Shown: one piece after another, positions 19,719 through 35,335 of the stretch
Numbering within the stretch: the first letter of the stretch is position 1
How the letters are laid out: each line of letters begins with the position of its first letter
DNA from: Chloroflexota bacterium
Lineage (GTDB): Bacteria > Chloroflexota > Anaerolineae > Promineifilales > Promineifilaceae
NCBI GenBank assembly: GCA_024275635.1
Contig: JAJRYT010000139.1
Coordinates: forward strand, 1 to 64,000
Length of the DNA: 64,000 bases
Direction: 5' to 3'
Made by a program: the position numbers and the translations under genes
The notes under the pieces: model-generated
What the model was told of the DNA's origin: nothing
Database searches by the model: none
Seen by the model: the letters and a program-made list of their open reading frames with translations, nothing else

Positions 19719-20960
19719 TTATGGTGAAACAATTAAGTTATTGAAACCGAGCGGGACGAGTTGGATGAAACTGTTGCCGGGAGCCAGGGGCAGGATAGCG
19801 CCGTCCAGGTCGGTGAAGGTGAGCATGTCGTAGGGATCGTCTCGATGCCAACGGCCGTCTACCCTCACCCCATCCCGAAAAACAGAAACCGGCCCCTCGC
19901 CCCACACCTGAATCTGGATGGAGTAATGGCCGTCGCCAACATGGTCTTCCAAAATATCGGTATCTTCGTGGTGGGCGGCGAGCAGGATGATGTTTTTGAA
20001 GCTGATCTGCTGGCCGGCGTTGGCGTCGAGGTGGGGTTCGCCGTCAGTCCAGCGGATGTAACGGCCGTTGCCACTGTTGTAAGCCCAGGTCACATACGTC
20101 CCATCGTAGCCGATCTCAATCTGGCGGGCCGGTTCGCCGGGGGTGAGCGGTTCCGCGCTGAAGGCCATGCCGTTTTGGAACTGGGGCGGCCTGTTTTGGC
20201 CGCGCTGGTCGAGGATGGCCCGCAAGTTGTAGGTGCTGGTGAACAGGGTGTGTTCAAATGCCTTGTTGGGGTCTTCCACGCGGAAGAAGCCGCCGTGCCC
20301 AAAATCGGGCGAGATGATGCGGTCGAAGAATTCGCTGTCGCGGAACATGAGCCGCACCGGGCCGGAGGAACCGGAGTAGGCGAAGGCGGCGTCATACATT
20401 TTGGGGATTTCCAGGTCAATGATGCGCCCGCTGCGGATGGAACCGACGGGATCGGCATCATGGCTGTAGAAGACGGCCGTGAACCGCGTCAATCCCCCCT
20501 CGGCATAATGTTCAAACACCAGGTCGGCGTTGTTCAGGCCGGATTGGGGGCGGACGATAGCCGGGGCGTTGGAGATTTTGATGGCTAACGGCCGTCTTGC
20601 CAACACAGCCGGGTCAGTAACTGTTTCTCCGGTTAATGGGTTGACGTTGGCAGGGAAGTTAGTGGGGCCGATGAGACCTTCGGGGAGGGAAACGGCCGTT
20701 GGCGGGGCGGGCGAGGCGGTGGGTTCGGCCGCCGCCGCGCCCTCATCTACGACGATAACCGGCGGCGGGGCGAGGGTAGGCGTGGGCGGCGGCGTGGGCG
20801 CGTTGTCAGGTTCAGCGGCGGACGGCTCGTTGTCAGTCACGACGCGCGTGACTTCAACAGGAATACCGGTTGAAGTTGGTGTTGGCTGGCAGCCAATAAA
20901 CAAAAGCGATAACAATAGAACAACAAGAAGCGCCATCAATTTAGGCTGATTTGTTGACAT
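19719..20960 (-). CDS. DUF3048-family lipoprotein
   Basis: The 413-residue product has a lipoprotein signal (hydrophobic run ending LLFIGC, Cys at about 24). A Pro/Thr/Ala-rich spacer (about 25-95) follows. The DUF3048 domain starts at NPLTGETV, with conserved stretches ALARRPLAIKISNAP, SGLNNADLVFEHYAEGG and DPVGSIRSGRIIDLEI. The family includes Bacillus YerB, and its biochemical role is not established. It is probably anchored outside the membrane. It is the last gene of a long minus-strand run, 77 bases beyond the hydrolase gene, and a gap of about 125 bases with no clear signals separates it from the peptidase fusion. It contains five ACGGCCGT copies. Confidence 0.85.
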   Translation of the reverse strand: MSTNQPKLMALLVVLLLSLLFIGCQPTPTSTGIPVEVTRVVTDNEPSAAEPDNAPTPPPTPTLAPPPVIVVDEGAAAAEPTASPAPPTAVSLPEGLIGPTNFPANVNPLTGETVTDPAVLARRPLAIKISNAPAIVRPQSGLNNADLVFEHYAEGGLTRFTAVFYSHDADPVGSIRSGRIIDLEIPKMYDAAFAYSGSSGPVRLMFRDSEFFDRIISPDFGHGGFFRVEDPNKAFEHTLFTSTYNLRAILDQRGQNRPPQFQNGMAFSAEPLTPGEPARQIEIGYDGTYVTWAYNSGNGRYIRWTDGEPHLDANAGQQISFKNIILLAAHHEDTDILEDHVGDGHYSIQIQVWGEGPVSVFRDGVRVDGRWHRDDPYDMLTFTDLDGAILPLAPGNSFIQLVPLGFNNLIVSP

Positions 20961-21037: not shown

Positions 21038-21829
21038 TTAGCGAACGCGCCGCTGCCAATGTTCTTTGGGGGTTAGTTCAGTTACGCTGTCATCGGCGTG
21101 AATGAAGTCCAGCAGCAGCCGGTTAAACTTCACTTTTTCTTGCAGCATGGGGAAATGGTTGCACTTTTTCAGGGGAACGAAGAAGCGTCTAGAATCGGAA
21201 TTTTGTAAACGGCCGTATTCGCTTGGCGGCAGCTGCACAACCTGGTCTTGCTCTCCGGAGACGATGAGTAACGGCCGTTCACAACTCGCCAGATCATTAA
21301 CAAAATCAATCCCCTTTAACTCTTGAGCTAGTTGATTCACAGCCAATTGGTCCGTCTTTTGCATTTCCGAATCCACTTCCATAAAACTATTAGACTTTCC
21401 CAACACGCGCGAGACAAACGAATCCGGCGTTGAATTTGTCAAACGCGCATGAATAAAATCACCTTGAAGTGGTAGAGAAACCGTCACCAGCTTGTGAACA
21501 TTTTCCGGGTGTTTTTTGGTATATCGCAGCGCTACGGCCGCGCCCAATGAATGTCCTATCAGAATAACTGGCTGGACAATACCCATCTTTTGAACGAACT
21601 GGTCAACCATTTCTACATAGGCTGATAGCGTATATAAATTGGACGACTTACTGGAATCGCCAAAGCCCCATAAATCAATCGCAAATGAACGCTGCCCTGC
21701 GGATAACGCCTGCATAGACGGCCACCAATAGCGCCAGGACCCCAGCCAACCATGCACAAAAAGCAGCGGTTGGCCGCGGCCCAGAACCTCGTAATGAATC
21801 AGTTGGTTATTGACGGTGGCAATGCTCAT
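21038..21829 (-). CDS. Alpha/beta-fold hydrolase (copy 1)
   Basis: The 263-residue protein has the standard fold: oxyanion motif LLFVHGWLGSWRYW (about residue 25), nucleophile elbow GHSLGAAVALRY (Ser near 94) and catalytic His in KCNHFPMLQEKVKF (about 229). It is clearly paralogous to the hydrolase encoded at 30095-30946 (shared HYE.LGRGQP, FWGFG/LWGFG, AYVEMV). ATG 21829 is preferred over TTG 21835. Neither has a strong ribosome site. It is the last gene of the ten-gene signalling/lipid cluster, 18 bases after the receiver gene. Likely substrates are esters or lipids, but specificity cannot be read. Confidence 0.85.
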   Translation of the reverse strand: MSIATVNNQLIHYEVLGRGQPLLFVHGWLGSWRYWWPSMQALSAGQRSFAIDLWGFGDSSKSSNLYTLSAYVEMVDQFVQKMGIVQPVILIGHSLGAAVALRYTKKHPENVHKLVTVSLPLQGDFIHARLTNSTPDSFVSRVLGKSNSFMEVDSEMQKTDQLAVNQLAQELKGIDFVNDLASCERPLLIVSGEQDQVVQLPPSEYGRLQNSDSRRFFVPLKKCNHFPMLQEKVKFNRLLLDFIHADDSVTELTPKEHWQRRVR

Positions 21830-21847
21830 AATCAAAAACGGATCGAT

Positions 21848-22222
21848 CTAATTCTTGTTCAAAATCGTGTTGACCGTACTAATCAGATCATCGGGAGAAA
21901 ACGGTTTCAAAATATACTGTTCCGCACCCGCATCCAATCCGGCCTGCACTTCAGCTTCCTGGCCTTTAGCCGATAAAAAGATGATGGGAATATGCTTTGT
22001 TGTTTCCTGTTCCTTTAGCTGGCGGCACGCTTCAAATCCGGTCATGTTAGGCATACGTACATCCATCAGGATCAAGTCAAATTGGCCCTGGTTAGCCTGC
22101 ACGATTTTGACAGCCACCGCGCCATCTTCTGCGCTGTCTACATCAAACCCGCTAAACTGGAGGGTTAATACAATGAGTTCACGAATGTCTTGATCATCTT
22201 CGGCAACAAGAATTTTGGCCAT
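21848..22222 (-). CDS. Single-domain response regulator
   Basis: The 124-residue receiver domain has acidic residues EDDQD (about 8-12), phosphorylation site Asp in LILMDVRMPNMTG (about 54), a Ser in FLSAKGQ (switch position) and Lys in ILKPFSPDDL (about 107). No output domain is attached, so it should act through protein contact. It starts 16 bases after the large sensor kinase and is presumably phosphorylated by it. Confidence 0.93.
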   Translation of the reverse strand: MAKILVAEDDQDIRELIVLTLQFSGFDVDSAEDGAVAVKIVQANQGQFDLILMDVRMPNMTGFEACRQLKEQETTKHIPIIFLSAKGQEAEVQAGLDAGAEQYILKPFSPDDLISTVNTILNKN

Positions 22223-22238
22223 AAATTTATCCTTTCAC

Positions 22239-25200
22239 TCAGGCCGGATCACTATCTTGAATTACAACGGGCAATGTGAAGGTAAACGTACTGCCTTTAC
22301 CTAGTTCGCTCTCTACTTCTAAAGCGCCGCCATGCATCTCAATAAGGCTATGGACAATTGCCAGCCCTAAACCGGTGCCCGGTACACTTTGCACAGCGGA
22401 TGATTCGGAGCGGAAAAACCGTTCAAAGATTTTCTGTAGATTTTTTTCGGAGATGCCAATGCCGGTATCCGTAATGCTTACGCTGATGAAATCACCGGCG
22501 GGTTTGGCGCTGATCCGAATTTCGCCGCCTTCTGGTGTGTAGTTGAAAGCGTTGTCTAACAGATTTGTGAATACCTGGGTGATGCGCGCCGGGTCGGCCT
22601 GAGCCAGTGGCAGCGCTGGCGACATCTCGGTGGTAATGTTGATTTGTTTATGGGTATGTTGGATACGGCCGTTCAAATGACCTTCAATAACCTGATCGGC
22701 AACCTGGGCAATATCAATGGGTCGCAGATCGAGAACGGTTTTGTTTGTTTCAATGCGTGAAATGTCTAGCAAATCATTGACCAACATGTGCAAACGGTCG
22801 GCATTGTTTTTGATAACCCGCAAGTATCGTGCCTGGGGATCACTCATTTGACCGGCGGCTCCCATGAGCATCAGATCAGCGTACCCCTTGATGGAGGTCA
22901 TGGGCGTGCGTAGTTCGTGGGATACGGTGGATACAAATTCGCTCTTGAGGTTGTCTACTTCCACTTCTTTGGTGATATCGCGGAAGATGGAAACCGTGCC
23001 GAAATATTGGCGGCCGGCCAGAACAGGGGACAGGTGAACGCTGATAATTTTGTCTTCAATGGTTAACTGATCAGCCAGGTAAGTCCATTGTTTGACGCGG
23101 TCGGCGTTGTTGGCCCAATCCTGAATGGTTTTGATCCAGGTGTCGCCGGCATGGCCGTATAGACCCAATAATTCGTTAATGGATTTGCCCTGGAGTCGAT
23201 TCCGGGGAATATCCAGAATAGAACTGGCAGGCATATTAGCCAGAATGATGCGGCTGTTGTCATCGGCGACGAGAACGCCGTCGGCGATGCTTTCGAGGAT
23301 GGCCTGGCTTTTGGCGGCTTCGATTTGTTCGGTACGGAGCATACTGCCCAGACGTTCGGCCTGTTCACGAATAAGTTTGTAAAGGTTGGCGTTGTTAATG
23401 GCGTTGGCGACCTGAATGGCGGCGGCTTCGACGAGGTCTAGCTGCTGCATGGTGAATGCGGCCGTTTCGATGTGGAAGAGCATGAGGACGCCGATGACCT
23501 CTTCACTGGTGATGAGGGGGACGCCTAAAACGGAGCGATATTGACGGCTTCGGGGCAGATCGATCCAACGCGGGTCTTCGCGCGTATCATGGACGATGAC
23601 GGCTGAACGATTGCGTATTATCCAACCGGCTAATCCTTCATCTCGCTTGATGCCGCTGGAGCCGGTGGGGGTGGATAACGGCCGTTCCATGCCCAACGCT
23701 GCCCGAAAATCTAATTCATCCGTTTCTTGATTGATAAGCAAAATCATGCCTTGGGTAGCGTTGACAACTTCATTGACCAAGTTTAACGCTTGATTCAATA
23801 CCCGATCTTGATCTAAACTAGCTGCTAATTCGGACGAGATACGCAGTAAGATTTTCACCCGGTTGCTTTCTTCATGCAAAGCATGGGTCCGTTCAGCTAC
23901 GCGCAGATCCAACTCTTCGTTGAAGTGGCGCAATTCTTCAAACAGCTTGGCATTTTGCAATGCGATAGCCACCTGGATGCCAAATGTGGTGGCCTGGGTG
24001 GTATCTTTATCACTGAAGCGGTCGGGGTTCCTGGTATCCGCCAGAACCATTACTCCGATAATTTCGTTTTCTTGTTCCAGAGGCACGCCCAACACGGCTT
24101 GAATCGTCTCTTTGTGGGGTAAGCGTAAATGAACCTGGTTGGTATCATGTACATGATTGAGATAAAGAGCGCGGCGTTCGCGGTAAATAAGGGTGACAAA
24201 GGCTGCGGAATCGTTAATAGGCACGGCGGACTCGGCAAAAGATAATTCGCCTTGTCCTTTGGCAGTGCTGCCGATGAATTGATCGTCCTCGCGCTGCCAG
24301 AGATAGGCGCCGTCAACATTGAATATGTGTAAACTTTCCTGACAGATAAGCCCTAATAGAGTTGAGCGGTCCAGCGTGTAGTTGATAGCCAGGCTGACTC
24401 GCCCCAGGGCATTGTAGAATCGTTCCCGTTCGTAAGTATCTTCAAAGATTAGCGCTGTTTCCAGGACGGTGTTGGCCTGGTTAGACAGGGCGGTGAGCAG
24501 CTGTCGGTCGCCGGTATCGAAGATTTGTTCCTGATCGCGGCTTATGATCGCTATCACGCCAAATGTTTCTTCAGATAAAACGATGGGCAAGATGATGCTT
24601 GCGTAAGGTTCGTCTTTGGGTAGCCAAACAGGGTGTGGTTGCAGCGCTGGATTATCGGATGGGTAAGAGGCGACAAGCAATTCCTGAGTGGTGATGACCT
24701 GGTAAATTGGACCGCTTTGATTTAATGGGAAGGTTGAGCCAATGGCGCGTGTAGCGGGCTGTGTATTATTGAACTTTTTAGGATGGGCATAGTCTTGAAG
24801 AACAACGAGCTGGTTAGCGTTGGGTCGCCACTGGTAGATGGTGTATCCGTCGGCGTTGATGGCCCGGCGCATATGTTTACCCATCAGGGTGACGACGCTG
24901 TTTTTATCGAGTGTGCCGGAGATGGCCCGGTTGGCTTCGAACAAAGTTTGGAATTCGCGGCTGCGGGCCAGGGTTTCCTGGACGAGTTGGGTGTTTTCGA
25001 TGACGGAGGCAGCGAATTGGGCGTATAGTTCGATGGTTTGCAGAGTGCGCGGGCCGGGGCGCCGACCGTTGCCAGGTTGATCCAGTCCTATTAGACCAAT
25101 AATTCGCCGCTGCCGATTGTGCAGGGGAACAAATAGAATGTCCCTTGGGTTCCAAGCGCGCGCATCCTCTTCGCCGGTGGCTGTTTGGTCGAGTAAGATG

Positions 25201-25853
25201 GTTCCCAGATTTTCTTCAGACCATTTACTCTCACCGGGAATGAAGTAACAATCGCCATGACGGTAACGATCAAGGTCTGGCCTGCTGAAAAGGTCACGCC
25301 AAACTTGAGCGGGGAGGATGTTTTGGCGCAAAAATTGTTGTTCTTCCGGTGTAAACCCGGCCATAATGAATTTGGTAGGCTGGAAATCTTTATCACGTAA
25401 GGTCAGCAGCACACGGTTCCAGCCGGTCATTTGCAACCCGTTGACGATGAGTTGTAATTTTTCATCAAAGTCGGGTTCTTTGTTGATGCGGGTCAGGGCT
25501 GTTAGATGGTCAATGGCGGCTGGCTGGGTGGTCGGCGGAGTGGGGCTAATAATGAGTTGGATGAGGGTGTCATCGAACCCGAAGCAAGGTTTCGCCAGGA
25601 TGTCAAGAATACGGCCGTTACTCATCTGCAACCGTGTTTCATCCGGCGGCGTGAGAAGCTTTTGCCATTTCTCATACGGGGCTACGGCCTGGAAAATTTC
25701 AGTAAGTGAAGCAGGTTTTAAGTCAAGACCTAATAAAGAATAGGCTGCTGGATTCATGTATGAAACAGCGCCATCAGTCTTAAATAAAACGATTCCCTCA
25801 TTGAGAGATTCAAGGAAAGTCCAGGTTGCAGCCGAGGTTAATTCCTGTTCCAT
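22239..25853 (-). CDS. Multi-GAF/PAS sensor histidine kinase
   Basis: The 1204-residue cytosolic sensor has an N-terminal PAS (about 12-115), four GAF-like domains (about 130-300, 300-465, 475-640 and 670-830), a second PAS (about 850-955) and a kinase core. Phospho-acceptor His is in STVSHELRTPMTSIKGY (about 975). ATP-binding boxes are NLLDNAFNYTPEGG, ITDTGIGISEKN and GTGLGLAIVHSLIEMHGG. No transmembrane segments are apparent, so it probably senses internal small molecules or redox state. It lies between the GGDEF-like regulator and the receiver in the ten-gene cluster. It contains ACGGCCGT copies at 22668, 23689 and 25611. Confidence 0.92.
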   Translation of the reverse strand: MEQELTSAATWTFLESLNEGIVLFKTDGAVSYMNPAAYSLLGLDLKPASLTEIFQAVAPYEKWQKLLTPPDETRLQMSNGRILDILAKPCFGFDDTLIQLIISPTPPTTQPAAIDHLTALTRINKEPDFDEKLQLIVNGLQMTGWNRVLLTLRDKDFQPTKFIMAGFTPEEQQFLRQNILPAQVWRDLFSRPDLDRYRHGDCYFIPGESKWSEENLGTILLDQTATGEEDARAWNPRDILFVPLHNRQRRIIGLIGLDQPGNGRRPGPRTLQTIELYAQFAASVIENTQLVQETLARSREFQTLFEANRAISGTLDKNSVVTLMGKHMRRAINADGYTIYQWRPNANQLVVLQDYAHPKKFNNTQPATRAIGSTFPLNQSGPIYQVITTQELLVASYPSDNPALQPHPVWLPKDEPYASIILPIVLSEETFGVIAIISRDQEQIFDTGDRQLLTALSNQANTVLETALIFEDTYERERFYNALGRVSLAINYTLDRSTLLGLICQESLHIFNVDGAYLWQREDDQFIGSTAKGQGELSFAESAVPINDSAAFVTLIYRERRALYLNHVHDTNQVHLRLPHKETIQAVLGVPLEQENEIIGVMVLADTRNPDRFSDKDTTQATTFGIQVAIALQNAKLFEELRHFNEELDLRVAERTHALHEESNRVKILLRISSELAASLDQDRVLNQALNLVNEVVNATQGMILLINQETDELDFRAALGMERPLSTPTGSSGIKRDEGLAGWIIRNRSAVIVHDTREDPRWIDLPRSRQYRSVLGVPLITSEEVIGVLMLFHIETAAFTMQQLDLVEAAAIQVANAINNANLYKLIREQAERLGSMLRTEQIEAAKSQAILESIADGVLVADDNSRIILANMPASSILDIPRNRLQGKSINELLGLYGHAGDTWIKTIQDWANNADRVKQWTYLADQLTIEDKIISVHLSPVLAGRQYFGTVSIFRDITKEVEVDNLKSEFVSTVSHELRTPMTSIKGYADLMLMGAAGQMSDPQARYLRVIKNNADRLHMLVNDLLDISRIETNKTVLDLRPIDIAQVADQVIEGHLNGRIQHTHKQINITTEMSPALPLAQADPARITQVFTNLLDNAFNYTPEGGEIRISAKPAGDFISVSITDTGIGISEKNLQKIFERFFRSESSAVQSVPGTGLGLAIVHSLIEMHGGALEVESELGKGSTFTFTLPVVIQDSDPA

Positions 25854-25946
25854 GCGATTAATTTGAAACCTCAGCCATTACTGCCAATACAATAAAATCA
25901 ATAAAGCGTGTCGTCAAAAAATAACTGTGATGAGACGGCTGATGGC

Positions 25947-26825
25947 TTAAATCTGGTCATGTCTCCGTAATTCGGCGGCCATTTCCGTAATTTCACGAAT
26001 ATCCGAAAATCGTTGCGTTTTACCAGAGACAGCGCCAATGGAGAGACGCATCAATGGAGCCAATGAGCCATCGGGTTTGGAAATGCCCCCTTGTTCCCGA
26101 TCCATAAAGTTGTAATGAGCCAAAACCTCCTCATCAAACCGCTGTCGTAATTGCGCGCTAATGGCATCGACATCTTCGGCTACCGAAATCAAAATCAATG
26201 TATCATTGCTGGCATGACCAATAAAATCATCCAATGTACCCTGGCTGTCCACGACCTCGTTCAAAAGCATGGCCGTAAAGCGAATAACCTCATCGCCGGC
26301 AACAAACCCATAGGCGTCATTGAAAGGGTTGAGATTGTCTATGCCGATAAGGAGCAGTGTCCAGTTATCATCACGCATGATTGACCGCAATTGATCTTCA
26401 ATTAAACGGGCGCTGGGAAGGCCGGTACGCGGATCAGTCATATTAAGCCGCTGGTGGGTGCGAATAGCCGTACCGATACGTAGCTTTAACTCTTCAATAT
26501 CAAAGGGTTTCGTGATGTAGTCGTCAGCGCCTAACTCCAGACCAGCAATTTTGTCGCTGCGCTCATCCTTTTGTGTAAGAAAGATGATAGGTATGTGGCT
26601 GGTACGGGTTGTTGTGCGCATTTCTTTACATACGGTATACCCATCCATATCTGGAAGCATGATGTCAAGTACAACGAGATCGGGCAAGCTTTTGCGACAT
26701 TGTTCCAGAGCATCACTGCCCCTTGACGCAACATCTACTTGGTAACCGTGGCCCGTGAAGAAGATGCGCAACATGTTAGAAATATCAAAATCATCTTCGA
26801 CTATTAAAATCTTGCCGTTGCTCAT
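25947..26825 (-). CDS. Response regulator with degenerate GGDEF domain
   Basis: Residues 1-125 form a receiver domain (EDD near 10; phospho-Asp in LVVLDIMLPDMDG, about 54; Lys in ITKPFDIEEL). A diguanylate-cyclase-like domain follows: LRSIMRDDNWTLLLIGIDNL, then NDAYGFVAGDEVIRFTAMLL. The active-site GGDEF is AGDEV here, so cyclase activity is doubtful. It may bind c-di-GMP or GTP, or act by phosphorylation-dependent contacts. It starts 17 bases after the reductase-like gene and 93 bases before the kinase gene. Confidence 0.88.
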   Translation of the reverse strand: MSNGKILIVEDDFDISNMLRIFFTGHGYQVDVASRGSDALEQCRKSLPDLVVLDIMLPDMDGYTVCKEMRTTTRTSHIPIIFLTQKDERSDKIAGLELGADDYITKPFDIEELKLRIGTAIRTHQRLNMTDPRTGLPSARLIEDQLRSIMRDDNWTLLLIGIDNLNPFNDAYGFVAGDEVIRFTAMLLNEVVDSQGTLDDFIGHASNDTLILISVAEDVDAISAQLRQRFDEEVLAHYNFMDREQGGISKPDGSLAPLMRLSIGAVSGKTQRFSDIREITEMAAELRRHDQI

Positions 26826-26842
26826 AGGCTTTTCCTTACAAT

Positions 26843-27970
26843 TTATAATGGGGCTGTGCCAACAAGTGGCTGACCATCTAACCTTAACTGATTGTTACTT
26901 TGAAATGCATGTGCTTTGATGTTCTTTATTTCTGCGGTACTGATGGCTCGTTCGAAACTTCTAAAGCCACTGAGTTTAAAACCGTGCTTCTCTGCGATTT
27001 TATCAATTGTCGATACTTGCGACAATGTTATATTTTTACCAAGCGTAAAGGATTCATAACGTTGTTCTAAAGTCAGGGCCATGGTTTCCGCCATACATGC
27101 GTAGGCCATTTTAGGCGGGAAGCCAAAATCAAAGCCAAAATCTACCGATCCGGGCACTTCAACCATGCCTCCCTCAATGACGAGGACATCTGAGCGTTGT
27201 GCGGCGACTTGTTGTGAAACATCGCGGGGGCGGGCTACATCACATATTACAGCGCCGCGCCGCAAGTGATGAGGCTGGATGATGTTATCAAGGGCGCTGG
27301 TGACAGTGATGATGAGATGGGCTTGAGCGACTTGATTCATATCAGTTGTTACAGTTACATGACGGCAGCCAGCGTTACGGGATTTATCGGCGACCTGGTT
27401 TAATTTATCTATACGCCGTCCAATCAATATCATTTTCTGAGCCATGGGGGCTAACATCTCGGCGCTGACGGCGCCAATAGCGCCGGTTGCGCCGATAATG
27501 GCTACGGTTGCCCGCGCCATGGGGATATCCATGATTGTGGCAGCTTCTCTGATTGCCCGCACGGCTATTGCTACCGTGTAACTATCTCCGGTTGTTACTG
27601 GAATGTTCAAGTTTTGAGCGATGGTGACGCCGCCATCACCCACAACGGAGGTGAAGGCGCCGAGTCCTAAGATGTTGGCCCCCAAACGTTCGGCCAAGCG
27701 GCCGGTTTGGATGATTTTTCGGTAAACAACTTGGGAAGGTAAGCTTATCATCCGGGTTGGCGTTAATGGACAGGCGATGAACCAACCTGGGGCGGAACGG
27801 CCGTTATCTACTGACCGTATCCCCGTAATCTCTGAAATAAAAACCGGGGGGAAAAATAACGATAAAAAATCAATCAGCCAGACAGGAAGCTTACCCAGCG
27901 CCGGAAACTTCCGAGCAACATCGCGTTGTGGATCAATAGGATGAATAACGAAGGCGAACGAATTAGACAT
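26843..27970 (-). CDS. Acyl-ACP-reductase-like oxidoreductase (AAR family)
   Basis: This 375-residue protein resembles cyanobacterial long-chain acyl-ACP reductase (AAR) in recognisable blocks: ANILGLGAFTSVV, VTTGDSYTVAIAVRAI, the NAD(P)-binding ATVAIIGATGAIGA, VIEGGMVEVPGSVDF and KMAYACMAETMALTLEQ. The Cys of YACMAE (about residue 292) aligns with the Cys in ACFAEA of cyanobacterial AAR, the position of its acyl-thioester nucleophile. The motif GFxFGFPPK replaces the ITWEI stretch. AAR makes fatty aldehydes for alkane synthesis, but no aldehyde-deformylating oxygenase is present in the window. Neighbours are a beta-helix acyltransferase-like gene and a GGDEF-type regulator. Annotation as quinate/shikimate dehydrogenase-like is the main alternative. 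Confidence 0.75.
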   Translation of the reverse strand: MSNSFAFVIHPIDPQRDVARKFPALGKLPVWLIDFLSLFFPPVFISEITGIRSVDNGRSAPGWFIACPLTPTRMISLPSQVVYRKIIQTGRLAERLGANILGLGAFTSVVGDGGVTIAQNLNIPVTTGDSYTVAIAVRAIREAATIMDIPMARATVAIIGATGAIGAVSAEMLAPMAQKMILIGRRIDKLNQVADKSRNAGCRHVTVTTDMNQVAQAHLIITVTSALDNIIQPHHLRRGAVICDVARPRDVSQQVAAQRSDVLVIEGGMVEVPGSVDFGFDFGFPPKMAYACMAETMALTLEQRYESFTLGKNITLSQVSTIDKIAEKHGFKLSGFRSFERAISTAEIKNIKAHAFQSNNQLRLDGQPLVGTAPL

Positions 27971-28044
27971 TTTAAGAGTTTAGCCTATTCGGATGTACCA
28001 GCAATAGCAAATCTGTCCCTGTAATTGACCACATCCATAACAGC

Positions 28045-29319
28045 TTATACCCTATCTTCCCGCGGGTACAAACGAGGATAGGGATATTTATCCCTATGCG
28101 GGTGATGGTCGCTGTCTTCATACCGAACCGGTTTGGTGATGATACGACGATCCTCGCCCAATAAAACTACATCTGACTCGATCGTGCGGGCCGGATATAT
28201 AATTACCCCAGAAGCCAGACGGCAATGATGACCAACACAGCCGCCCAACACCAACAAGTTCGTTTCTTCGACCTGCCCACCTTTTCCAACCGTTCGCAGC
28301 GGGCCACCGAGCACATTAAAATCAGTAAACGTTGTACCGGCGCCGATAAAAGAATCCCGTCCAATGACACATAATTGCAAACAAGTGTTTTGGGCAACCA
28401 TTGTATTTTCCATCATCGTTGTCATAAATAATGCTGCCCGAAACGGTAAAAAACAACCATCACTTACAACACTTAACATTAATTGGCAGCCTTGTGAAAT
28501 TGTTACATTATTACCAATGACACAATTATCAATAACGGCGCCAGCCCCGATGGTAACATTGTCCCCAATTGTTGTTGGCCCATGAATAATCGCCGATGAA
28601 TCAATATTTGCATTTTTGCCGATACGAACTACTTCTGAACTGGCTAACACCTGTTTTTGTTCATAAAGTGATTTGAATAAAACCTTCAGCTTATAACGCC
28701 ACTCTTCGTTAATGCGATCTTCCACATTAGCGCTTTTGGCAAACGTGCCAAATAAAATGTCGGCCACGAAAAGATGCACCCAATTTTCCACCAAGACAAA
28801 TGCTTTACGGGGCAGTTCATATACTAAATCGCCAAAATCAGTAGCCATATATGGTGGCACATGATAATAACCGCGTTCTCGTGCTTCAGTATCAATTTCT
28901 AAAGGGATGGCCTCTACATCCTGGGCGACCCCCTTTGGTAAATACCACATATCCGCTAACAGCAAGTTTCCTTGTTCAAATAGCGAATGAGTTAACGGCC
29001 GTACATGCATTGCCACAGCCGGATCATCTGCGCGAAACGCCAAACGTACCGGCCGATGCCCCTTTTGGGCTTTCCTAATAAACTCATCAATTAACTCGCT
29101 ATCAAAAAACAAATTATCTTTATGCACAAAAGACTCGACCGGCTCCGTCTCCTTTTGGTGTGCCTCATGCCAATTCTCATACTCACGCTCTTCCTTGACA
29201 TACGGAGCCAGAACATCCCGTTGCCACAGCCACAACGGTTTATTCTGTACCCGTAAATCGCGGGCCGGTTCATTAAACGGGGCAATATGAGCAGGTTCTT
29301 TCAAAATAATGCGACGCAT
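28045..29319 (-). CDS. Left-handed beta-helix (hexapeptide) protein, acyltransferase-like
   Basis: The 424-residue protein has an N-terminal half of about 210 residues with no family I can name. A left-handed beta-helix follows, with hexapeptide repeats starting at VVRIGKNANIDSSAIIHGPT and running through TIGDNVTIGAGAVIDNCVIG. More coils run around residues 320-400 (IGAGTTFTDFNVLGG, LGGCVGHHCRLASGVIIYP). The C-terminal tail is rich in His, Arg and Tyr. The helix is shared by acyltransferases and sugar-nucleotide enzymes such as GlmU. No nucleotidyltransferase motif is visible, so acyl transfer is the simplest guess. It lies between the V4R gene and the AAR-like gene in the cluster. Confidence 0.7.
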   Translation of the reverse strand: MRRIILKEPAHIAPFNEPARDLRVQNKPLWLWQRDVLAPYVKEEREYENWHEAHQKETEPVESFVHKDNLFFDSELIDEFIRKAQKGHRPVRLAFRADDPAVAMHVRPLTHSLFEQGNLLLADMWYLPKGVAQDVEAIPLEIDTEARERGYYHVPPYMATDFGDLVYELPRKAFVLVENWVHLFVADILFGTFAKSANVEDRINEEWRYKLKVLFKSLYEQKQVLASSEVVRIGKNANIDSSAIIHGPTTIGDNVTIGAGAVIDNCVIGNNVTISQGCQLMLSVVSDGCFLPFRAALFMTTMMENTMVAQNTCLQLCVIGRDSFIGAGTTFTDFNVLGGPLRTVGKGGQVEETNLLVLGGCVGHHCRLASGVIIYPARTIESDVVLLGEDRRIITKPVRYEDSDHHPHRDKYPYPRLYPREDRV

Positions 29320-29441
29320 AATAAAAACAACTTATAGAATTACCCTCAAACATTTGCATCAACCGCGCAAATGATGATGAGTGGCAATTCGCACTTTAGC
29401 CGCTTTCCATATTAGCCACTGCGCACTTGCGGTTTACCGCG

Positions 29442-30098
29442 TTATGATAGAGGCTTTTTAGAAATTACAATTGTGCAAGTGTCATCACCTGCCGCAATAC
29501 ACGATACTTCTTCAACCCGGAAACGACGACCACGACTCACCCAGTCCAAACTTTGTTCCAACAAGCCAACAGCTAAATGACAAGTAGGCGTTTCCGACGT
29601 TCGTTGCCAACAGACCGGACAGCGCTCAATAATCCACAAAAACCCCCTCTCATCTTCACCTAGTCGTATTTGTTGATCGGTGAACTTATTCAATGTCTCC
29701 GCAAAAACATCAAGGCCTATCTTTATCTTAATACCTAAGGGCAAAGTCCTGAAAACCAGGTCAGTAATGCCCAGGATGGGCATAAATTCTTTTAGCGCAT
29801 ACTTCCATGTTTCACGTCCGGCGCGTAAAGCCAGCCCACGCCCACCACGAACGCCATACATTTCATCTAACGTTTGTTGGATCCTGCTAAACTCAGCAAA
29901 AGTAAAACCAAGCCGTAAATTGTTAGGGGGGTAACTATTAACCAGGTGATTTAACTTAGCGAGGTTCAGAATTGCGTTGACTCCATGACGCCCCATAATT
30001 TCTTCCATGGCGGTCAAAACAATGCGACCCATTTTATTAGGGTAATAATATTCGATAACGTCTAAACCATTTGTGGCGTTCTGTTTCGCTACGTTCAC
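29442..30098 (-). CDS. V4R-domain protein
   Basis: The C-terminal 90 residues of this 218-residue product form a V4R (4-vinyl-reductase) domain: IIERCPVCWQR, then CHLAVGLLEQSLDWV and VEEVSCIAAGDDTCTIVI. Three cysteines and one histidine sit in the usual zinc-type pattern. The domain binds small hydrophobic ligands in regulators such as DmpR and is related to BchJ. No enzyme active site is evident. It overlaps the upstream hydrolase gene by four bases (ATGA), so the pair is translated together. A ligand-sensing role in the cluster is inferred. Confidence 0.85.
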   Translation of the reverse strand: MNVAKQNATNGLDVIEYYYPNKMGRIVLTAMEEIMGRHGVNAILNLAKLNHLVNSYPPNNLRLGFTFAEFSRIQQTLDEMYGVRGGRGLALRAGRETWKYALKEFMPILGITDLVFRTLPLGIKIKIGLDVFAETLNKFTDQQIRLGEDERGFLWIIERCPVCWQRTSETPTCHLAVGLLEQSLDWVSRGRRFRVEEVSCIAAGDDTCTIVISKKPLS

Positions 30099-30946
30099 TG
30101 GAGCCGCCGATCATTTCCATGGTCATTGTCCAGGAAATCAGTCAATGTTTTCATAAACAATTCTGGTTCATCTAACATGGGGAAGTGACGAGAATGTTTC
30201 ATCATTGTTACCCGCACCCCCTGTGTTACTTTCACGCCATCCTGAATTAATTGGGCATTTGTAGGCGAGACAATGTTGTCATGAACGCCATAAATGCCCA
30301 GTATTTCTGACTCCAATTCGGCCAACTCCTCTCGCAAATCTGTATCGCGTAAATTACCAATACTGCGAAAGAAAGATTCGAGCGTAGTGCGCTGAACATC
30401 ACGAAAAATCATATGACGTACTTGTTTAGAGTCACGAGCCAGTAAAATACGCATAATAGAGTGCAGCATAAACGGGTAGCGCCAGATCAACTTGGCAATT
30501 GACCCATAGCCGGCTAACCGCAAAACGGGATTTAATGAAGTTCCCAGCACAGGCGATCCAACAACCGCCACTTTTGTGACCCGTTCAGGGTAAGAAAGAG
30601 CCATTTGTAATGTGACCGTTCCTCCCATTGAATGACCAAATATGGGGGCTTGTTGAATACCCAGTGTATCCATAAATTGATGCACCATTTCCACATAGCC
30701 GGCCATGTGGAAGGCGCCTGTCGTTTCTTTTGATCTCTTGGCCGACTCGCCAAATCCCCAGAAATCAAGCGCGTAAACCCGGTATTGCCCTGTTTGAGAT
30801 AGGGTAATCATTAAGTTGCGCCAGACATCCCAGGAATTTATCCACCCGTGTAACAGTATAATGGGTTGTCCCCGCCCGATTGATTCGTAATGTAGAATCC
30901 CTTGTTCTGTTACGATGGAACTCACGCTAACCTCAATGCTGCCCAT
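30095..30946 (-). CDS. Alpha/beta-fold hydrolase (copy 2)
   Basis: The 283-residue hydrolase has oxyanion segment IILLHGWINSWDVW (about 28), nucleophile elbow IFGHSMGGTVTLQ (Ser near 102), an acid in LGIYGVHDNIVSP and His in KHSRHFPMLDEPELF (about 262). It is paralogous to the protein encoded at 21038-21829, and the two bracket the cluster. The family includes lipases, esterases and C-C hydrolases. The 211-base gap upstream has no clear promoter, only a degenerate inverted motif around AGGGTCATT and TTGACCCT (31075-31110). Confidence 0.87.
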   Translation of the reverse strand: MGSIEVSVSSIVTEQGILHYESIGRGQPIILLHGWINSWDVWRNLMITLSQTGQYRVYALDFWGFGESAKRSKETTGAFHMAGYVEMVHQFMDTLGIQQAPIFGHSMGGTVTLQMALSYPERVTKVAVVGSPVLGTSLNPVLRLAGYGSIAKLIWRYPFMLHSIMRILLARDSKQVRHMIFRDVQRTTLESFFRSIGNLRDTDLREELAELESEILGIYGVHDNIVSPTNAQLIQDGVKVTQGVRVTMMKHSRHFPMLDEPELFMKTLTDFLDNDHGNDRRLQ

Positions 30947-31157
30947 TTACAAGGCGATGCTTTATGGAATTGCACCATTGGCCTAGCGCCTCTTTTTGCT
31001 TCAGCTACATTTTTTGAATGATTATTAACTCTCATTTGATGAGCAACTGAAGGGCTGTTCTTTATCTTCAATAGGGTCATTAATTGCTCAAATAGTAGCA
31101 TTGACCCTACTTGAAAACCGTGAAAAGCCAGTAAAGGTGCTGTAAACGAAGCGTTAA

Positions 31158-31709
31158 TCAGTTATGTTCAGCGGATTCCTCTTTATCCAATTCTTCTAAG
31201 ATGGAATAAAGCAGTTCTAACAATACATTTTTTACAGTTTCTTTGTCTGTTGCCACACAAGGCAAGATTTTAACTTCAGGTTTCAGCCGCAAGATGATGC
31301 GTAAATCTTCTGGTTCCCAGGCATCTTCCATATCCTGTTTGTTGGCGGCTACGACGTAAGGAGTTGAAGCATAGCCCTCAAAAGTCTCCAGGATGCGCTT
31401 GGCTTCGCGGAATGTTTCCGGTTTGGTGCTATCTACCATCACGACAAATCCAAGCATGCCTTGTGATAAGATATCCCACATGAAGTCAAAACGTCGTTGA
31501 CCGGGGGTGCCGAACAGGTAAAGGACAAGATCGTCGCCAACCGTGATACGGCCGAAATCCATCGCTACTGTTGTGGTTCCCTTGATTTGTTCGGCGCTGC
31601 TGGTGATTTTTCTTTCAGTCGAGACCACGTCAATTTCACTGACTGAACCAATGAATTCGGTTTTACCTGAAGAAAATGGGCCGGTGATAACCATTTTGGC
31701 AGCTTGCAT
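31158..31709 (-). CDS. Small Ras-like GTPase (MglA/CvnD type)
   Basis: The 183-residue protein carries a P-loop GPFSSGKTEFIGS (about residue 9), switch-I Thr in KGTTTVAMDFGRI, switch-II FGTPGQRRFDFMW and the base-specificity motif AANKQDMEDAW. It matches the bacterial GTPases that act with roadblock, DUF4388 and PAS partners in polarity, motility and conservon systems. FGTPGQ, in place of the Ras DTAGQ, is typical of this bacterial group. It lies directly after the DUF4388 gene. No roadblock (MglB) gene is present in the window. Confidence 0.9.
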   Translation of the reverse strand: MQAAKMVITGPFSSGKTEFIGSVSEIDVVSTERKITSSAEQIKGTTTVAMDFGRITVGDDLVLYLFGTPGQRRFDFMWDILSQGMLGFVVMVDSTKPETFREAKRILETFEGYASTPYVVAANKQDMEDAWEPEDLRIILRLKPEVKILPCVATDKETVKNVLLELLYSILEELDKEESAEHN

Positions 31710-31799
31710 AAGTAAATCCCTTGTGAAAGCAAATCAATCTAAAATATGATCTATGAAAATATAAAAACAACCATGTTATTGGCTGTCCCTGGGAACAGT

Positions 31800-32651
31800 T
31801 TATAGACCGCGTATACGGTGAATGAGGCGCTCTACAACAGATCTCCGCGCGGCCGGTGTTTCTGAAGGGGGGGCTGTTTTGGTACGTGTTCTGCGTGCAG
31901 ACGACTCTGTTTGTCGCGTTGATTTTCGTGGTTTGGGTGGTTGTAGCAACTCCACGAGACCAGCTTGGAGCATACCGTATATGATACGCCGAATTTCAAA
32001 GTCACTAAGGTTGTTGGCTTGAGCAATCTTACGCATATTATTGCGCGGATCAATCAAAGAAACGACTTTCCATTCTTCAACCGTGAGGTTGATGTTGCGC
32101 AGTCGTGTATCGGGGCGATCCGTAAAACGAAGAGAGGCGTCAAGGTCAGGCAGTTCTTCTTGTAAGATTTCCCACTCTTTCAGCCGTCGGCTCCCTTCCA
32201 TAATGACGCTTTCCAGATCTATAGGGATGGTAATATGACTAGAGGAAGGAAGCTGGTTGGCTTCAAAGTGGAATAATCCTTCAACCCATGTAAATAGTTT
32301 GTAGACGATATTAAGCACGTTTTGCCGGACGCTTTGAATAATATCACTTTGGGTTACGTAGCCAGCCTGGATGAGCAAATGGCCTATTTGCTTGTCACTT
32401 TTGCCCTTGACCTTTGTTTCGATTATATGGGCTTGTGCTTTAGAAAGTTTACCAGCGGTTTGCAGGATTTGGGCTAAATGGTTATTTTGTTCAGCCCCTA
32501 GATGGGCATAGATGAGCTTGCCCTCACGAAAGGACATATGGGCAATTTCACCATTATTTTGAATGGTTAATGTACCGGTTTTGCGCGCTAGATTAATGAG
32601 GTTTAATAATTGCGTTGTGGAGAAATCGCGCAGGTTGCCTTTAAGGGCCAT
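31800..32651 (-). CDS. DUF4388 (PATAN-like) domain protein
   Basis: The first 110 residues of this 283-residue protein are a DUF4388/PATAN domain: MALKGNLRDFSTTQLLNLI, then GTLTIQNNGEIAHMSFREGKLIYA. A middle helical part (VLNIVYKLFTWVEGLFHFE) follows. A winged-helix-like segment (TVEEWKVVSLIDPRNNMRKI, then IRRIIYGMLQAGLVELL) precedes a basic, Arg/Thr-rich tail. DUF4388 proteins commonly sit with small GTPases and response regulators as adaptors. This is the first gene after the 32795-32823 promoter and therefore heads the cluster. Confidence 0.88.
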   Translation of the reverse strand: MALKGNLRDFSTTQLLNLINLARKTGTLTIQNNGEIAHMSFREGKLIYAHLGAEQNNHLAQILQTAGKLSKAQAHIIETKVKGKSDKQIGHLLIQAGYVTQSDIIQSVRQNVLNIVYKLFTWVEGLFHFEANQLPSSSHITIPIDLESVIMEGSRRLKEWEILQEELPDLDASLRFTDRPDTRLRNINLTVEEWKVVSLIDPRNNMRKIAQANNLSDFEIRRIIYGMLQAGLVELLQPPKPRKSTRQTESSARRTRTKTAPPSETPAARRSVVERLIHRIRGL

Positions 32652-32794
32652 AGTTTTTGTTCCTGCTTTGTATCTTTGGATTAGTTGTGGATAGCTTCCA
32701 ATTTGTTTTGTTATTTTGCAACAACTTTATTAAGAACGGGCTTACTAATGACTGTAGCCGACACTGAATTTCCATAATGTTATTATTCGTGTGC

Positions 32795-32823
32795 ATTATA
32801 CATGTTGTAAAAATGCAAGTCAA
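32795..32823 (-). promoter_or_regulatory. Strong sigma-70 promoter of the ten-gene cluster
   Basis: On the minus strand TTGACT (32823-32818) and a perfect TATAAT (32800-32795) are exactly 17 bases apart. Transcription would start near 32788 and give a leader of about 137 bases before the DUF4388 gene. No operator-like dyad is evident at the site. Confidence 0.75.
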
Positions 32824-33972: not shown

Positions 33973-34029
33973 GACACGAATGGCGCGAATAACACGAATA
34001 AGATGATTTTAATTCGTGAAATTCGTGTT
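33973..34029. repeat. AATTCGTG palindromic repeat, copy 1
   Basis: AACACGAAT and ATTCGTGTT pair across a 21-base interval, with further CGAAT words on the left. Relatives lie at 41247-41313, 42489-42537 and 62475-62590. It may end the aldolase transcript. Confidence 0.7.
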
Positions 34030-34069
34030 AGATTTCCAACCTTCTGAGACGGCCGTTCTAGGAGTTACC

Positions 34070-35335
34070 ATGACCAGCTTAATCGGACAAACCATCAACA
34101 ATCGTTACCGGTTAGAGTCCCTGTTGGGTGACGGGGGGATGGGCGCTGTGTATCGTGCTTACGACCTGAACCTGGATCGGCAAGTGGCGATTAAACTGAT
34201 GCACGCTCATTTTGCCCGCAAGGCCGAGTTTCGTGCCCGGCTGGTTCAGGAAGCGCAGACGGCCGCCAAGCTGGATCATCCTTCCATCGTCAAGATTCAT
34301 GATTTTGGCAATTCAGAACCGGGCTTGTTTATTGCCATGGAATATGTCAACGGCGGCAGTTTGCGGGAGCATCTGCGGCGGCTGCAAACGATGGGGAAAT
34401 ATCTGCCATTAGCCCAAAGTTTGCAGATTGCGGCCCAAATCGCCGATGCGCTGGATTACGCTCACCGGCGCGGCATCATTCACCGCGACGTGAAGCCGGG
34501 CAATGTTCTGCTCAAGCGGCTGACGCGCCCCGACGCGCCTGGTGAACAGCCTTTCCGGGCCATGCTGACTGATTTTGGCCTGGTGAAGTTGCAAGAAGGA
34601 TCGGAGATGACCCAGAGTGGGGCGACCTTGGGAACGCCCACGTATATGTCGCCAGAGCAGTGTGAGGGGGGAGATTTAGACGGTCGTACCGACCTTTACT
34701 CCCTGGGTGTGATCCTATATGAACTAGCTACCAATAAACTTCCCTTTGCTATGAAAACCCTTTCCGAAGCAATGGCCCTGCACCAAAGAGGAGAAACGCC
34801 GCCGCCGGCCCGCATGATCCGGCCTGATTTGCCGCCTATTATTGATGCGATTTTAGCCAAAGCCTTAACCAAAGCGCGTGAAAATCGTTACGCCGATGCC
34901 GCTGACATGGCCACCGCGCTGCAGGGCGCTATCGTCGCTTTGGAAGGCGCGCCCACGCAGATTATGCACCGGGAAGAAGTTGACATCCTGGAACAGGTAA
35001 AGGAGCCGCCGCCCGGCCACGAACTACATATTGAAACCCCCGGCCATCCGACCAGCGTTTTTGCGCTCACTCAAGCAGTCATCACGATGGGGCGCAATGC
35101 TGATAATGACGTAGTGCTGCCGGCAGAGGGGGTATCCCGTCATCACGCCCGGCTGCAAGCGACGGCGTTGGGCTGGGAAGTGATTGATTTGGGCGGCATT
35201 AACGGTACCTGGCTGGATGAACGCCGGCTGCGAGCCAGTGACGCCACGCCGATTGCGCCTGGCTCCCGCCTGCGGATTGGGCCGTATGCGCTGATTTTGC
35301 ACGGGCCGGAAGTCGCCATCCAGGACTTACCGTAG
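34070..35335 (+). CDS. Ser/Thr protein kinase with C-terminal FHA domain
   Basis: The 421-residue protein is a Hanks-type kinase: glycine loop LLGDGGMGAVYRA (about 20), Lys in QVAIKLM (about 41), catalytic HRDVKPGN (about 140), TDFGLVKL (about 170) and SPEQCEGGDLDGRTDLYSLG. No transmembrane helix follows. An FHA phosphothreonine-binding domain occupies residues 330-415 (GRNADNDVVL, VSRHHARL, NGTWLDERRL). Kinase and reader in one chain suggest self-association after phosphorylation. I chose ATG 34070 after TAGGAG. The next gene starts six bases later and may encode a partner or substrate at the membrane. Confidence 0.9.
   Translation: MTSLIGQTINNRYRLESLLGDGGMGAVYRAYDLNLDRQVAIKLMHAHFARKAEFRARLVQEAQTAAKLDHPSIVKIHDFGNSEPGLFIAMEYVNGGSLREHLRRLQTMGKYLPLAQSLQIAAQIADALDYAHRRGIIHRDVKPGNVLLKRLTRPDAPGEQPFRAMLTDFGLVKLQEGSEMTQSGATLGTPTYMSPEQCEGGDLDGRTDLYSLGVILYELATNKLPFAMKTLSEAMALHQRGETPPPARMIRPDLPPIIDAILAKALTKARENRYADAADMATALQGAIVALEGAPTQIMHREEVDILEQVKEPPPGHELHIETPGHPTSVFALTQAVITMGRNADNDVVLPAEGVSRHHARLQATALGWEVIDLGGINGTWLDERRLRASDATPIAPGSRLRIGPYALILHGPEVAIQDLP

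Follow-up and report, generated by a model that had tools for sequence, protein, structure and literature searches.

Small GTPases of the MglA family are part of two of the closest described systems. In Myxococcus and Thermus, MglA works with the Roadblock partner MglB, and PATAN (DUF4388) proteins are sometimes encoded near the MglA genes (PMC4316618). The locus described here also has a small GTPase with a Roadblock partner, but the GTPase carries GTPGQ and not the TVPGQ and arginine of Group 1, the Roadblock gene usually lies elsewhere, and there are added genes for a V4R protein, hydrolases, an acyl-thioester reductase-like protein (AAR) and a nucleotidyltransferase-like protein with a left-handed beta-helix (LbH). 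The actinobacterial conservons (CvnA-D) are likewise strictly conserved clusters of a histidine kinase and an MglA-family GTPase. The present unit differs from them in having two receivers, DUF4388, V4R and enzymes; no Roadblock or CvnC-type gene was recognized by Pfam among its ten genes, and the conservon make-up, with CvnA, CvnB, CvnC and CvnD in one cluster, was not found.

The TRAPP subunit Bet3 has been proposed to descend from prokaryotic V4R proteins. In TRAPP (Bet3/TRAPPC3, longin core, and Rab) and in the case of Asgard TRAPPC3, a GTPase, a Roadblock/longin-type fold, and a Bet3/V4R fold occur together, as they do here. The present case is, in contrast, bacterial and known from genes and folds, and its sequence family is V4R (PF02830), not TRAPP. 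Homology of V4R to Bet3 has been described (PMC2253512). For Asgard TRAPPC3, a role with Rab-like GTPases has been proposed, although small-GTPase genes in Asgard genomes generally do not share operons with those for Roadblock, longin, or TRAPPC3 (PMC10933270). The phenol-sensing proteins MopR and PoxR share their C, E, C, C zinc-site pattern with the V4R protein, but the latter is stand-alone and has no sigma-54 activator domain. Cyanobacterial AAR and the reductase domain of PigE are homologous to the AAR-like protein, but the operon has neither the ADO alkane step nor the PigE aminotransferase. GMPPA/GMPPB, eIF2B-epsilon/gamma, and ST0452 have the same nucleotidyltransferase and left-handed beta-helix fold as the LbH protein (Z 16-25), which differs from them in its nucleotidyltransferase signature.

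The window analysed is a 64,000-nt stretch of a Chloroflexota genome, which named relatives of the operon place with the Anaerolineae. Ten ORFs are coded on its minus strand from 32651 to 21038, with intergenic gaps of -4 to 211 bp (Table 1), and Pfam/NCBIfam backed the domain assignments of all ten proteins. The sequence-only reading of ten co-directional genes was correct in place, strand, and spacing. Its identification of DUF4388, GTPase, two hydrolases, V4R, AAR-type reductase, kinase, and receiver stands, while an acyltransferase and a working GGDEF cyclase were not supported. No clear transmembrane segment was predicted in any of the ten proteins, and the kinase is therefore probably cytoplasmic. 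A DUF3048 gene, again on the minus strand, lies 77 bp further downstream and recurs beside the operon, downstream and co-directional in 8 loci (window included) and upstream and divergent in 8 others; for this reason the transcript may hold 11 genes.

Table 1. Features of the unit, with positions in the window
Feature	Position	Strand	Remarks
Promoter TTGACT-17-TATAAT	32795..32823	-	Starts at 32823; kept in window and 25 relatives
DUF4388 (PATAN) protein, 283 aa	31800..32651	-	PF14332, 8.6e-29; sole copy in genome
Small GTPase, 183 aa, MglA-like, GTPGQ in G3	31158..31709	-	Sole close GTPase of its group in genome
Alpha/beta hydrolase 1, 283 aa	30095..30946	-	Ser106/Asp223/His254 invariant
V4R protein, 218 aa, Bet3/H-NOX/V4R fold	29442..30098	-	C173, E197, C200, C208 invariant
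Nucleotidyltransferase-like and left-handed beta-helix (LbH) protein, 424 aa, probable pseudo-enzyme	28045..29319	-	
Acyl-thioester (acyl-ACP/CoA) reductase-like protein (AAR), 375 aa	26843..27970	-	PigE N-domain and cyanobacterial AAR relatives; C292 kept
Response regulator, REC and degenerate GGDEF, 292 aa	25947..26825	-	
Soluble PAS/GAF histidine kinase, 1204 aa	22239..25853	-	
Single-domain receiver (REC), 124 aa	21848..22222	-	
Alpha/beta hydrolase 2, 265 aa	21038..21835	-	
DUF3048 lipoprotein-like gene, possible eleventh member	19719..20960	-	

A perfect TATAAT with TTGACT at 17 bp had been pointed out before the first gene. Taken singly, this match is weak, with 27 such sites in the region against 18.6 expected. 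It is nevertheless conserved: a promoter matching at 11 of 12 positions, with 17-bp spacing, stands upstream of DUF4388 in 25 out of 25 close relatives. The -35 hexamer of the relatives is TTGACT in most and TTGACG or TTGACC in four. The distance to the start codon varies from 89 to 289 nt in the window and the 25 relatives, and the surrounding sequence is otherwise divergent. In the close relatives examined, no 200-bp stretch ahead of the nine further genes reached 11/12, and no internal gap holds a promoter of equal quality that could split the unit. Comparison of these sequences thus supports one conserved transcription unit, predicted to be read from one conserved promoter.

The gene order DUF4388-GTPase-hydrolase-(V4R)-LbH-(AAR)-response regulator-kinase-(REC-hydrolase) recurs, with variable flanking genes. 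It was surveyed in 40 class-wide loci and in the best 80 named loci from a contig scan, all 80 of them from Chloroflexota, and was strict in 105 of the 108 loci that hold both ends of the unit. Co-occurrence in related genomes, on which the initial proposal depended, is thus well documented, also in named Anaerolineae. The ten-gene unit is conserved across many filamentous Chloroflexota.

Among 150 genomes of the class, 70 have the GTPase orthologue, at 72 places in all. DUF4388 is upstream in 65 of these loci, V4R downstream in 51, and LbH downstream in 45; V4R is the commonest partner of the GTPase after DUF4388. Nineteen of the GTPase loci linked to V4R lack an LbH gene within 4 kb. At least a dozen of them have V4R beginning 7-67 bp behind the GTPase, without the other enzymes; the remainder includes a few truncated contigs (G028, G108, part of G129) or split operons (G130). 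The GTPase is present in every one of the 50 LbH genomes surveyed. About a third of the LbH loci have no V4R gene, and about 30% have no AAR; one locus of the latter kind is in a genome of the same family as that of the window. The presence of each changes about 16-18 times on the LbH FastTree (16 for AAR). Because they are so often missing and change so often, AAR and V4R are accessory in cis and neither can be essential there. Several genomes hold a V4R paralogue elsewhere. A divergent V4R hidden in loci without a V4R match was considered and rejected, as nearly all of the 29 gaps inspected are too short for a gene. DUF4388-GTPase, often with V4R adjoining, is the persistent core. The idea that the enzymes are central to the unit holds only in part: an AAR-type reductase with its motifs is there, but AAR and V4R vary from locus to locus and DUF4388-GTPase persists.

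In Chloroflexia-type genomes (families f62, f63, f73, f99, and f102), V4R-LbH-regulator-kinase or LbH-regulator-kinase stands mostly apart from DUF4388-GTPase. In genome G130 the operon is broken at the V4R/LbH boundary, its parts forming the separate loci L063 and L216, which suggests two sub-modules that can be joined. Two independent modules, one of DUF4388-GTPase-hydrolase-V4R and the other of LbH-AAR-response regulator-kinase-receiver-hydrolase, could therefore be co-transcribed without direct crosstalk. This would agree with the separations in G130, in the Chloroflexia-type genomes, and in G055, and with loci of Herpetosiphon-like genomes where the second module and V4R occur without DUF4388-GTPase. 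Independence of the two is nevertheless improbable in our judgement, given the GTPase in every LbH genome surveyed, the strict order whenever the modules are joined, and the retention in trans of both parts, GTPase of this group and V4R, in 11 out of 11 Chloroflexia-type genomes. In three of the Chloroflexia-type loci (L258-L260), DUF4388-GTPase comes after a DUF1385 gene and a gene of the tRNA methyltransferase family (HUP domain), apparently in the same order in all three genomes. A UvrA-like protein, neighbour c5 in Chloroflexia-type genomes, looks incidental.

The G1-G5 motifs of the GTPase are intact in the alignment (GPFxxGKT, TTVAMDFGR, FGTPGQ, and NKQD). GTPGQ in G3 is the form of MglA groups 2-5 (PMC4316618). 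The features of Group 1 MglA, TVPGQ and an arginine beside the G2 threonine, were not seen, and invariant T46-T47-V48 and GTPGQ are found instead. Of the 70 genomes with the GTPase, 69 also encode a Roadblock (MglB-type) protein, against 3 of the 81 that lack the GTPase (Fisher p about 4e-38, without correction for phylogeny). Six Roadblock proteins from different families, among them the sole Roadblock of the genome studied (L225), are 71-80% identical to the first, and an Asp-Gly pair is conserved. In the genome of the window the gene is encoded outside the ten-gene unit. In L090/L244, L211, L213, L220, and L195 it directly follows the GTPase; L213, L220, and L195 have GTPase-Roadblock-V4R contiguous, and L090/L244 has GTPase-Roadblock-hydrolase-V4R. 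GTPase and DUF4388 as the core of a switch, as first proposed, are thus supported, together with a Roadblock partner encoded elsewhere that had been missed. In about 30 other genomes the Roadblock gene lies instead in a second, parallel cassette, ahead of a second V4R and then a REC/GGDEF-like protein. The genome studied has a second V4R paralogue (G000:C86:24935-25546, L236) followed by a REC/GGDEF-like protein, and L237-L249 are of the same kind.

An MglA-like GTPase with GTPGQ, a Roadblock partner, and a PATAN protein (PMC4316618) could also be a polarity or motility switch of the MglA kind that controls type IV pili or gliding, and the GTPase is present in Chloroflexia-type genomes. Such a role is nonetheless quite unlikely, with no motility gene among the ten genes or their conserved neighbours and with the arginine feature of Group 1 not seen. 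A simple motility role is weakened further by the cultured Anaerolineae, most of which have been described as non-motile.

The four invariant residues of the V4R protein (Table 1) align with the C-E-C-C residues of MopR, which we take to be zinc ligands. The V4R domain proposed initially is borne out, with this pattern intact. The AlphaFold model (pLDDT 88) matched H-NOX with Z of 14.9, Thorarchaeal TRAPPC3 (7yh3) with 13.7, mouse Bet3 (1wc9) with 12.7, and MopR with 11.6. Since Z is slightly higher for H-NOX than for TRAPPC3, no function can be picked from the fold by itself. A heme-binding reading as in H-NOX was rejected, if on slender grounds, as the family has no invariant His and the zinc-site residues are invariant. 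In Pfam, the V4R proteins yielded V4R (PF02830) and MetOD1 only, and no match to the TRAPP sequence family. GTPase, Roadblock, and V4R might form a bacterial TRAPP-like complex, in which acyl-loaded V4R would control nucleotide exchange, the ligand would be made or removed by the co-transcribed enzymes, and the complex would be coupled to a two-component relay; we consider this tentative and rather unlikely.

The model of the LbH protein (pLDDT 81) matched, over its whole length, ST0452 (Z 25.1), GDP-mannose pyrophosphorylases, and eIF2B subunits. No NTP_transferase Pfam match was obtained in the N-terminus at E 10 for 31 members. Compared with nucleotidyltransferases of the same genome, it has a shortened segment ending in PFNEPAR at the GxGxR...K site; this pairwise profile alignment is weak, while the fold match is strong. 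Because the nucleotide-binding signature is lost, the LbH protein is probably a pseudo-nucleotidyltransferase, as judged from sequence and model. GMPPA and eIF2B are examples of pseudo-nucleotidyltransferases with a sensory or regulatory role. On its own, the LbH part is shared also with acyltransferases of the LpxA/LpxD type. The beta-helix protein had been named acyltransferase-like earlier; a plain acyltransferase was set aside as improbable from the fold, since the best full-length match is that of a nucleotidyltransferase with LbH, of the GDP-mannose pyrophosphorylase/eIF2B type, with the signature loop lost.

The AAR-like protein aligns over its full length with PigE and Synechococcus AAR, as seen in an alignment to 6jzq and 4ppm. 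Its catalytic Cys and the NADP Rossmann motif GATGAIG are kept, which bears out an AAR-type reductase; its score of 109.6 bits is far below the equivalog cut-off of NCBIfam TIGR04058 (449.7 bits). A second AAR-like domain is coded in the same genome in a 1561-aa ORF (G000:C19:27066-28154), and in many Anaerolineae such domains are in ORFs of roughly 740 aa, possibly PigE-like reductase-aminotransferases. The unit could be a lipid-metabolism operon with built-in regulation, in which AAR, hydrolases, and LbH would make a surface lipid derived from fatty aldehyde or alcohol, and GTPase, V4R, and kinase would only regulate. The conserved Cys and Rossmann motif of AAR, the catalytic triad kept across the whole family of hydrolase 1, and the usual adjacency of the LbH and AAR genes are all consistent with it. 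The optional AAR, missing in the same-family locus L062, the LbH fold unlike that of an acyltransferase, and the occurrence of DUF4388-GTPase-V4R without any of these enzymes make this operon a doubtful explanation.

The GGDEF domain of the response regulator has GHASND in the window in place of the GG(D/E)EF signature, and the position of the metal Asp is not Asp in the relatives shown. An active diguanylate cyclase was rejected on both counts, and the domain of the GGDEF-like regulator noted initially is degenerate.

The model that we prefer is a soluble, kinase-linked switch with an MglA-type GTPase and a V4R subunit that senses a hydrophobic ligand. It builds on the conservation, motifs, folds, and co-occurrence seen here and proposes the contacts, the ligand, the direction of the signal, and the output; as a whole we regard it as evenly poised between right and wrong. 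A single transcript would give a cytoplasmic signalling unit based on the GTPase, in which the large soluble kinase would phosphorylate the two receiver proteins. These probably act by protein contact, since an output by DNA binding or by a working cyclase is missing in both. DUF4388 would link the kinase-receiver relay to the GTPase, with the Roadblock protein as a putative GTPase-activating or scaffold subunit. V4R, as a Bet3-fold binder of hydrophobic ligands, may tune the GTPase-Roadblock complex in response to a hydrophobic ligand, for instance an acyl one. In loci that have them, AAR and the two hydrolases could make or clear this ligand by acyl thioester reduction and ester cleavage. 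The nucleotidyltransferase-like beta-helix protein is probably a scaffold that senses a metabolite, in the manner of GMPPA or eIF2B. As output, the switch likely controls the cell envelope, the filament, or surface behaviour locally, and not transcription.

PATAN proteins near MglA (PMC4316618) and the homology of V4R and Bet3 are already known. In the literature searched, no description was found of the whole unit, of a GTPase-V4R or Roadblock-V4R linkage, or of the pseudo-nucleotidyltransferase component; this conserved ten-gene signalling unit of a large filamentous bacterial group is apparently undescribed. The GTPase-V4R linkage is a new lead on the role of the V4R domain, because of its homology to Bet3 (PMC2253512) and the proposed work of Asgard TRAPPC3 with Rab-like GTPases (PMC10933270), although the fold fits a plain ligand sensor as well. 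GTPase, Roadblock, and V4R folds are linked here by operon and co-occurrence in bacteria, some of them related to cultured strains, and direct tests are therefore possible. A putative bacterial relative of the eukaryotic vesicle-tethering machinery thereby becomes testable.

Contig NZ_LGCM01000042.1 of Levilinea saccharolytica has two apparently identical copies of the operon (L140 and L142) in opposite orientation, about 15 kb apart, which are either a recent inverted duplication or an assembly artefact. On the plus strand of the window, at 34016-35335, a Ser/Thr protein kinase fused to an FHA domain is coded beyond a divergent beta-eliminating lyase gene.
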